Positions 33,516-35,662 of a stretch of DNA of 64,000 nucleotides are shown piece by piece. Location: the NCBI GenBank assembly GCA_018266845.1, contig JAFDZO010000013.1:62001-126000 (forward strand). The letters are read 5' to 3'. The notes beneath the pieces are model-generated. The model had not been told where the DNA came from and did no database searches. It saw only the letters and a program-made list of their open reading frames with translations. A program made the position numbers and the translations under genes. Origin of the DNA: Bacteroidota bacterium. Its GTDB lineage: Bacteria; Bacteroidota; Ignavibacteria; Tepidaquicellales; Tepidaquicellaceae. Positions within the stretch are counted from its first letter, which is position 1, and the number at the start of each line of letters is the position of its first letter.

Positions 33516-34040
33516 TTGGATATTCAAAAACTAAAATTTCCTATTGGAGAGTTTGCTCCGAAAGAAAATTATTCGCAGGAAGAAATTAATTCTTTCATCG
33601 CCGATATTGAAGCGCTGCCCTCACAACTAAGACAAGAAGTAAAAAATCTTTCAGACATTCAGTTAGACACTCAGTATCGCCCTGAAGGGTGGACTGTAAG
33701 GCAGGTTATACACCACTTGCCCGATAGCCATATGAACTCCTTTATTCGTTTTAAGCTAACTCTTACAGAAGACACCCCCGAAATAAAACCTTACTTTGAA
33801 GACAGGTGGGCAATGCTGCCGGATGCCAAACTTCCTCCTGAAGTTTCACTTAGAATTATTGATGCTCTGCATGAAAGATGGGTTTATCTTTTGAAATCAA
33901 TGACAGAAACGGACTTTGAGCGAAAGTACATTCATTCCGAATACAAAAAAACATTTACTCTAAAGGAAGCGGTTCATTTGTACTCTTGGCATTGCAGGCA
34001 TCATTTAGCTCACATACAGCTTGTAAGCAGAGCCAAATAA
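33516..34040 (+). CDS. YfiT/BstA-like DinB-superfamily protein
   Basis: A 174-residue four-helix-bundle protein of the DinB superfamily, closest in pattern to YfiT-type putative metal hydrolases: PEGWTVRQVIHHLPDSHMNS in the first half and LYSWHCRHHLAHI near the end supply the His residues of the metal site. Related enzymes include BstA-type bacillithiol S-transferases. The start is TTG at 33516; no ATG fits. It is 59 bases after mntH without a clear terminator. Function beyond thiol-transferase-like is uncertain. Confidence 0.8.
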   Translation: MDIQKLKFPIGEFAPKENYSQEEINSFIADIEALPSQLRQEVKNLSDIQLDTQYRPEGWTVRQVIHHLPDSHMNSFIRFKLTLTEDTPEIKPYFEDRWAMLPDAKLPPEVSLRIIDALHERWVYLLKSMTETDFERKYIHSEYKKTFTLKEAVHLYSWHCRHHLAHIQLVSRAK

Positions 34041-34192
34041 TTCCTTACGCCGCAAAAAATTACACTTCACATTTTCAATAACCGGGTTGTTTACGGGTTT
34101 ATGCCGTCCCAAACAGGGGTTTGGGACGAAGCAAAATAGAACTTAACAGCTCTGGGGTTCAGGGCAAGAGTTTCAAAGATATTTACTTAAAA

Positions 34193-34360
34193 GTAACATT
34201 TTTGTAACATTCTTTGTTTTTAAACCGTTTTTGATGTTTTGCAGCATTTTCTTCACTCGTCTGAAAAGTAACATTATAGTAACATTTTGAATTTTAAATA
34301 TTGATTTTTCAATAGTTCCTATTCCTAAGAATGTTACTTTTTTTCAATTAATGTAACATT
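34193..34360. repeat. Cluster of six GTAACATT octamers
   Basis: Direct copies start at 34193, 34204, 34268, 34279 and 34353, and an inverted copy spans 34330-34337. The first two pairs each have an 11-base start-to-start spacing, close to one helical turn. This regularity resembles protein-binding iterons, but no replication or regulatory gene adjoins it. Confidence 0.6.
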
Positions 34361-34592
34361 TCTGCAAAATAGTTTGTAGCTCAAATATTCATAACTATAT
34401 CGGTGTTGCCCTTGCCTTACAGAGGAAAAGTGTGTTTCAATTTTATAGCCATAAAAAAATATGGTGTTTTCCTGAAAATGTAAAGCCATTTATTTATGCC
34501 ATACTCAAACTCTTGCTGCACGACAAAAAAATAGTAGCCCTATTGAGTGCGGGGCAAGCTCTTTAGGATGGGTTTGATATGGTCTAAATGTT

Positions 34593-34640
34593 CCCTTTAG
34601 GGTAAAATAAATGCTGTTTGCAAAGTTTTGCCCTAAAGGG
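34593..34640. repeat. Inverted repeat with 15-base arms
   Basis: CCCTTTAGGGTAAAA (34593-34607) pairs with TTTTGCCCTAAAGGG (34626-34640), 14 of 15 positions plus one G-T wobble. Each arm is itself partly palindromic. Confidence 0.7.
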
Positions 34641-34662
34641 CAACTATGGGCGCTTGAAATTT

Positions 34663-34682
34663 CCCCATCCTAAAGGATGGGG
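34663..34682. repeat. Perfect hairpin CCCCATCC/GGATGGGG
   Basis: Eight-base GC-rich stem with a TAAA loop. A related sequence, CTTTAGGATGGG, occurs at 34561-34572. Confidence 0.7.
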
Positions 34683-34784
34683 TTACTATATTATAAATAA
34701 GCGCCAATGAAATATTTAATCTTGAAAGAAAATTATACATTTCAAAATTATTTTTGTTGTGTGATGAAATTTAAACTTTAATTA

Positions 34785-34920
34785 CACGACGAAAATTTTT
34801 CATAAACTATGAATTAACTAAAAGGGATATAAAATTTGAGGTATCTTTCTAAAGTTAGATAAAAAATTTGCTATCGTGTTGCAGGGTATTGGTAGAGACG
34901 CAATACATTGCGTCTCTACG
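34785..34920. repeat. Direct repeat, copy 1, ending in a 13-base palindrome
   Basis: The first 108 bases are nearly identical (about five differences) to copy 2, 149 bases further on. The last part (34892-34919) is a palindrome, GTAGAGACGCAAT with its complement, of a type found as short interspersed repeats in many bacterial genomes. Confidence 0.85.
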
Positions 34921-34933
34921 CCAACTCTCGCTG

Positions 34934-35069
34934 CACGACAAAAATTTTTCATAAATTATGAATTAACTAAAAGGGATATAAAATTTGAGGTATCTTTCTA
35001 AAGTTAGATAAAAAATTTGCTATCGAGTTGCGGGGCATTGGTATAGACACATGTATTGTGTCTATGCTC
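34934..35069. repeat. Direct repeat, copy 2, with base-pair-compensated palindrome
   Basis: Same layout as copy 1. Its hairpin (35041-35067) differs from copy 1 at two stem positions where both partners changed (G-C to T-A and G-C to A-T) and at one wobble, so pairing is preserved. A partial third copy of the left boundary, AACTCTTGCTGCACGAC, occurs at 34508-34524. Confidence 0.85.
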
Positions 35070-35161
35070 TAATAAACGAGATAGTTTTATATCGTTTAGG
35101 AGCGTTTACCTTATTATTTTCAGGAAAACTTTTGCAGTGAAATTATTCTAAAACCCACAAT

Positions 35162-35662
35162 TCATTTTTGCGGAATTTTTCTGAACATCTCAACAAGCTG
35201 ATTTGTTCTTCTCGAGATTACGTCTATTTGTTTGTTTCTCTCCTGAGAATTAAGAAAACTCTCCCACGCTTTTTTGTTGAGGTTTGCTTTGTATTCGTTT
35301 GCTGTCTGTACGGAACTTATGGAAGGGGAAACTTCTAATATAATAAAGGTAACTATGAAAAAAAGAAAAATGAAGATTGCATTTCTATATGCGATTTTTT
35401 CTTTCAAGTAATTGTACTTGAATCTGCTCTGGACAAAATTATATTCTTTGAATTTTTTTTGAAACTTCTCATCGTAAATTTTTCTGAGCAGCGGGTCGGA
35501 TAAAACCTGATATGCCTCATTCACTCTCTTGAACATTTCCTCTGAATTTTCTTCCCGGCTAATATCGGGGTGATACTTGAACGATAGCCGTCTGAAAGCT
35601 GATTTTATTTCACCGCCATCTGCGCTATCCGGCAGCTCTAATATTTGATAAAAATTTATCAA
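35162..35662 (-). CDS. Membrane-anchored J-domain protein
   Basis: A 166-residue protein. Residues 2-65 are a J domain (FYQILELP, KYHPDIS with the essential HPD, VNEAYQVLSDP), so it should stimulate a DnaK ATPase. A single hydrophobic helix at about residues 95-112 (FIFLFFIVTFIILEV) is followed by 55 polar residues without a recognisable fold. The J domain would face the cytoplasm and the tail the periplasm. Start is TTG. It stands alone and its client is unknown. Confidence 0.82.
   Translation of the reverse strand: MINFYQILELPDSADGGEIKSAFRRLSFKYHPDISREENSEEMFKRVNEAYQVLSDPLLRKIYDEKFQKKFKEYNFVQSRFKYNYLKEKIAYRNAIFIFLFFIVTFIILEVSPSISSVQTANEYKANLNKKAWESFLNSQERNKQIDVISRRTNQLVEMFRKIPQK

Follow-up and report, generated by a model that had tools for sequence, protein, structure and literature searches.

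Two direct copies of a 149-bp unit in a Bacteroidota genome end in hairpins whose stems differ by compensated base-pair changes and whose loops run in opposite directions. We think it probable that an orphan double-foot REP was tandemly duplicated at this locus and that hairpin 2, the second copy, was then remodelled by template switching or exchange. On balance, we attribute these particular stem changes to hairpin copying or exchange rather than to selection on an RNA. When both partners of a base pair have changed, a functional RNA is commonly considered proven; in the present case such compensated changes occur in a DNA palindrome linked to a transposase, along with loops reversed within direct arrays, and a mutational process alone can make this pattern.

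The tandem unit and its two hairpins

The window analyzed is a stretch of 64,000 nucleotides (G000:C4:62001-126000) from a 3.53-Mb draft genome in 46 contigs that is 98% complete. The features of the locus, with the strand given where one applies, are as follows.

34041..35161: intergenic space between the convergent ORFs 33516-34040 (+) and 35162-35662 (-), holding both units, their hairpins and the neighbouring element
34502..34767: neighbouring MITE-like element, right end ...TTTTTGTTGTGTGATGA, with such ends on both sides
34774..34922, + strand: tandem unit 1, 149 bp, comprising MITE-like end, body and REP
34783..34802, + strand: terminal-inverted-repeat-like end of unit 1, TACACGACGAAAATTTTTCA, matching a dispersed end family
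34892..34919: hairpin 1, double-foot REP GTAGAGACGCAA-TACA-TTGCGTCTCTAC, a perfect 12-bp stem identical to the family consensus
34923..35071, + strand: tandem unit 2, 149 bp, direct tandem copy of unit 1
34932..34950, + strand: the same end in unit 2, TGCACGACAAAAATTTTTC
35041..35067: hairpin 2, variant REP GTATAGACACA-TGTAT-TGTGTCTATGC, 11 pairs, of which two are compensated and one is a wobble

A sequence-only reading of this DNA had described near-identical direct copies 149 bases apart, and our comparison agrees. The direct repeat pair 34774-34902 / 34923-35051 has a spacing of 149, and the unit body (34783-34891) differs between copies at 6 of 109 sites in an ungapped comparison. A 25-nt piece of the repeat body has two matches in the window and none in any dinucleotide shuffle of it. 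The similarity of both units is continuous up to the hairpin foot.

Hairpin 1 has 12 pairs and a 4-nt loop (DNA fold -13 kcal/mol, z -7.5) and hairpin 2 has 11 pairs and a 5-nt loop (-7.9 kcal/mol, z -6.0). As single-stranded DNA both fold far better than shuffles; the bodies, with z-scores of -1.2 and +0.3 under DNA parameters, do not fold clearly better. The stem differences are exactly the two compensated pairs and one wobble first described. Pair 4 is G34895-C34916 in hairpin 1 and T35044-A35064 in hairpin 2, pair 9 is G34900-C34911 in hairpin 1 and A35049-T35059 in hairpin 2, and at pair 2 the T-A of hairpin 1 is a T-G wobble in hairpin 2, in which none of the 11 pairs is broken. Two further differences were absent from the earlier description: hairpin 2 has one A fewer, and its loop is turned round, from TACA to TGTA. 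Hairpin 2 is 6 edits from the reverse complement of hairpin 1 and 8 edits from hairpin 1 itself, and its ends have degenerated to GTAT and ATGC, with neither foot intact. The claim that changes concentrate in the stem also stands, but the effect is modest, with differences at 5 of 22 positions in the arms and 6 of 109 in the body (Fisher p = 0.02).

Judged from its ends, the 109-nt body appears to derive from part of an inverted-repeat (MITE-like) element. A dispersed element of ~275 bp has the body's outer end, CACACGACAAAAATTT, as its terminal repeat, and TCATCACACGACAAAAATTT occurs with at most 3 mismatches at 64 places in the genome, compared to 0 for the control. The body recurs at C15, C23, C42 and C43 with 71-79% identity, joined to the REP. 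A partial third boundary had been placed at 34508-34524; it is real (34502-34529, 25/28 identical to 34917-34944), but it is the left end of the neighbouring element and not a third unit, as the 34502-34767 element has unit-like ends on both sides. The right end of this element matches four other places at 76-81%. The ~275-bp MITE-like family (L078-L087) is dispersed, with ends TYAYCACACGACAAAAATTT and CGCAAAG-rich inner segments. Between genes at 34181-34365 there are several AAAGTAACATTTTTGTAACATT-like repeats in both orientations, and similar repeats lie beside the elements L078, L080 and L082.

The hairpin belongs to a large family of REPs

The hairpin GTAGAGACGCAA-NNNN-TTGCGTCTCTAC has about 100 copies in the window's genome, mostly in tandem arrays. 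The core pattern has 106 forward matches, compared to 2 for the reversed control, and a longer hairpin pattern has 92. Many copies are arrayed in tandem with array-specific spacers and near-constant spacing. One array of this hairpin, at L035:2363-3159, has 17 units with a period of 48-49 nt; its stems are variable, with C-G to T-A and G-C to A-T among the compensated changes, and it reads open as spurious ORFs. Among the matches listed, named genomes from Bacteroidota, Planctomycetota, Chloroflexi, Cyanobacteria, Deltaproteobacteria and other groups carry exactly this stem.

GTAG-tagged REPs are palindromes of 20-40 nt with a terminal GTAG and many copies; the hairpin is 28 nt long, has the form GTAG...CTAC and occurs about 100 times. 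The double foot, GTAG at the 5' end and CTAC at the 3' end, is present in hairpin 1 and not intact in hairpin 2. Such double-foot REPs, which belong to TnpA-REP subclass 2.4 (RAYT group 4), are abundant in Bacteroidetes and Cyanobacteria (PMC6006769). The hairpin is very probably of this type, to which we assign it on the basis of motifs and REP features in a relative's transposase and its homologues that match those published for subclass 2.4 (PMC6006769).

A transposase is linked to the hairpin in relatives

The search for a linked transposase, suggested by the sequence-only reading, succeeded in a relative but not in the window's genome. In G014, a genome of the same family with 26 hairpin copies, a gene for a 177-aa Y1 transposase has inverted copies of the hairpin on both sides, their GTAG ends facing away from the gene. 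The protein scores 26.7 against Pfam Y1_Tnp, above the cut-off of 23, and 45.8 bits against NCBIfam REP_Tyr_transpos, below the cut-off of 80; a solved-structure search returned nothing meaningful. The motifs of subclass 2.4 are NH[IFV]H, WQ and YIxNNP, accompanied by flanking REPs. We judge this combination to be present in G014, where NHIH and WQ are found and the tyrosine motif, YISENI, is only similar to YIxNNP; homologues carry YIxxNP.

Most of 30 class-wide homologous loci contain GTAGAGACG-N10-CGTCTCTAC-like palindromes, either next to the gene or within it; the internal ones keep the reading frame and fall between the HUH motif and the Tyr helix. Four of 80 named contigs that were fetched for the hairpin alone hold such a transposase gene; the hairpin lies within the open frame in all four, and in one a second copy is 43 nt away. 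In-frame REP insertion is thus found in most of the homologous loci read as well as in these four contigs, while the G014 gene has no clear internal copy. In eight RAYT frames (L128, L132, L134, L137, L139, L140, L146, L155) the REP palindromes encode VETRHASSL, VETGHAPSL or similar, and at other RAYT loci the palindrome is read in frame 1 as GRDVQLNVST. For subclass 2.4, peptide-coding in-gene REPs are already known in general terms (PMC6006769).

No relative of the G014 transposase was found in the window's genome at a match threshold of 1e-15 across the 46-contig draft. The Y1 genes that this genome does have (on C15, C11 and C7, with a short piece on C33) were rejected as cognates, as their adjoining hairpins belong to other families. 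The REPs of the window's genome thus look orphaned, although the missing RAYT could sit in a gap of the draft assembly; genomes with REPs but without tnpA-REP have been mentioned (PMC6006769). Three RAYT-like Y1 genes of the window's genome (L032, L033 and L034) each lie among different hairpin copies, GTTGGTC.., CGTTCCCACGC.. and CCGTCCCAAAC.., which amounts to one hairpin family per transposase. A REP of a second family, CCGTCCCAAAC-AGGG-GTTTGGGACGA, occupies 34104-34129 in the same intergenic space as the tandem units; it departs by a single mismatch from the hairpin pattern that accompanies the RAYT gene G000:C7:72991 (L034).

Stem covariation and loop reversals across the family

Compensation is general in the hairpin family, in which the foot is fixed and the inner stem is variable. 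Across pairs 4-12 of 70 distinct hairpins of the genome other than hairpin 2, 591 stem cells are unchanged, 21 have one-sided changes that break the pair, 13 have one-sided changes to G-T and 5 are compensated. Column shuffles give 0.93 compensated cells, with 6 of 5000 reaching 5; when hairpin 2 is included, padded by one loop base to keep register, there are 7 compensated cells compared to 1.1 expected and none of 5000 shuffles reaches 7, although the copies are related and these shuffle figures are not true probabilities. Between genomes, hairpins at RAYT loci were picked by one arm only, GTAGAGACG, and gave 28 distinct inner decamers; 102 of 140 inner pair cells are Watson-Crick, compared to 47 in shuffles (maximum 65). 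The earlier proposal to look for pair-breaking mutations in the genome copies therefore has a mixed outcome. Compensated changes are above independence, but 21 of the 39 changed cells break pairing, and one-sided changes (34 in all) outnumber compensated ones genome-wide.

In the arrays on C10, C25 and C19 the spacers are in direct orientation while the 4-nt loops occur in both orientations, in ratios of 5:3 in C10 and 7:3 in C25, with mixtures of the AGTA/TACT, CGTA/TACG and CACG/CGTG type. The asymmetric outer flanks in C10 keep their orientation, so the whole unit is not inverted. Reversal is not universal, as in nine other arrays all loops point the same way. Hairpin 2, with its reversed loop and its greater similarity to the reverse-complemented hairpin 1, fits this pattern.

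Origin of the stem changes

The reversal of loops within direct arrays suggests that the changes arose by mutation, through hairpin copying or exchange. Template switching makes both compensated stem changes and inversions of 4-nt loops, bacteria included (PMC8794818). We propose that the space between the two convergent genes held a decayed inverted-repeat (MITE-like) element with one REP inside it, perhaps after past mobilization by a RAYT that is now lost or missing from the assembly, and that a tandem duplication then copied 149 bp including this REP. Hairpin 2 could then have become single-stranded at a replication fork, where one arm would template the other; such copying would reproduce a point mutation on both sides of the stem and could turn the loop round. 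Alternatively, a different copy of the family, inverted relative to hairpin 2, may have overwritten it, and gene conversion from such a copy predicts much the same pattern. We infer that template switching or exchange, and not selection, made these compensated changes. Two observations count against this reading: most stem changes in the genome are uncompensated, and the two compensated pairs are not adjacent, which makes more than one event likely.

The sequence-only reading had offered replacement by a family member, in which hairpin 2 is another copy that brought a ready-made variant stem through gene conversion or RAYT-mediated exchange. A family of ~100 hairpins does exist, and replacement is possible because the A-T variant at pair 9 is present in C28:13233 and C8:56082. 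The C28 copy also has its loop in the TGTA orientation, and few copies in the genome are closer to hairpin 2. However, even the nearest copies are 5 edits away, T-A at pair 4 was in no copy found, and the unit similarity runs unbroken up to the hairpin foot. We regard replacement of this kind as possible but not likely.

We are more doubtful that the stem was kept paired by selection for a DNA hairpin as transposase substrate, in which the RAYT cleaves folded single-stranded REPs and only paired variants spread. RAYT-linked REPs show strong covariation of their inner stems around a fixed GTAGAGACG foot, although that foot was the selection criterion and the 3' partner and inner stem were not. 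In a published assay on another REP, a stem mismatch reduced cleavage (PMC8266576). On the other hand, no cognate RAYT was found in the window's genome and hairpin 2 has GTAT in place of GTAG; such selection can therefore explain the family but hardly the recent difference between the two copies.

Selection for a structured RNA, or for a hairpin at the 3' end of an mRNA, is improbable. Compensated changes do exceed independence, in keeping with the earlier suggestion of selection for structure, and two convergent ORFs have their 3' ends facing the hairpins. But among the 39 changed stem cells of the other copies 21 no longer pair, compensation is outnumbered by single-sided changes, and loops reverse freely, which favours a mutational origin. 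Rfam returned nothing over the window except a tRNA elsewhere in it, and with no Rfam family and no body fold clearly better than shuffles the locus does not resemble a structured non-coding RNA. An intrinsic terminator (GC-rich stem followed by a T-tract) was also rejected, as 0 were found in 33900-35300. RNA selection is not needed to explain the compensated changes. Chance pairing between a handful of independent mutations is a very improbable source: there are only two compensated pairs and the Fisher p for arm concentration is 0.02, but these come with a wobble and no broken pair among 11, and the genome-wide compensated count including hairpin 2 exceeds that of all 5000 shuffles.

If template switching is the source, then tandem REP arrays may record it in bacteria, with loop turns and arm-copied changes frequent enough to be seen beside point mutations; we advance this tentatively. 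With the same reserve, the template-switching reading would mean that REP-like DNA hairpins acquire compensated changes with no selection on an RNA. Because each array has many units, and spacers that are not reversed and so serve as an internal control, one could use them to compare how often hairpin template switching and plain mutation occur in a natural bacterium.

Comparison with known systems

The locus is ordinary in kind, a double-foot REP that is orphaned and tandemly duplicated; the loop flips are the novel part. REPINs are short palindromic, RAYT-dependent, non-autonomous repeats that occur as inverted pairs of REPs. The elements described here are likewise short, palindromic and non-autonomous, but they are single double-foot palindromes in direct tandem, with one inverted pair at C28 (L049).

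As in subclass 2.4 (PMC6006769), the hairpin begins with GTAG and closes with the complementary CTAC, and in relatives REP copies flank the transposase gene and lie in frame within it between the HUH and Tyr motifs. Unlike subclass 2.4, the REPs in the window's genome are orphans in MITE-like tandem units. GTAG-tagged REP families (PMC3733652) share the GTAG tag and the short stem-loop, have complementary stem variants that define subfamilies, and form clusters tandemly reiterated with flanking DNA. That survey lists GTAG repeats for no groups other than Proteobacteria, Cyanobacteria, Chloroflexi and the PVC group; compared to its families, the 12-bp stem is at the long end of the range and both ends are tagged.

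Among the papers searched, none names both REPs and template switching. The template-switch mutations of hairpins in PMC8794818 and PMC8604942 were described for RNA genes and yeast coding genes, unlike the present case, but they show the same combination of compensated stem changes and short-loop inversion.
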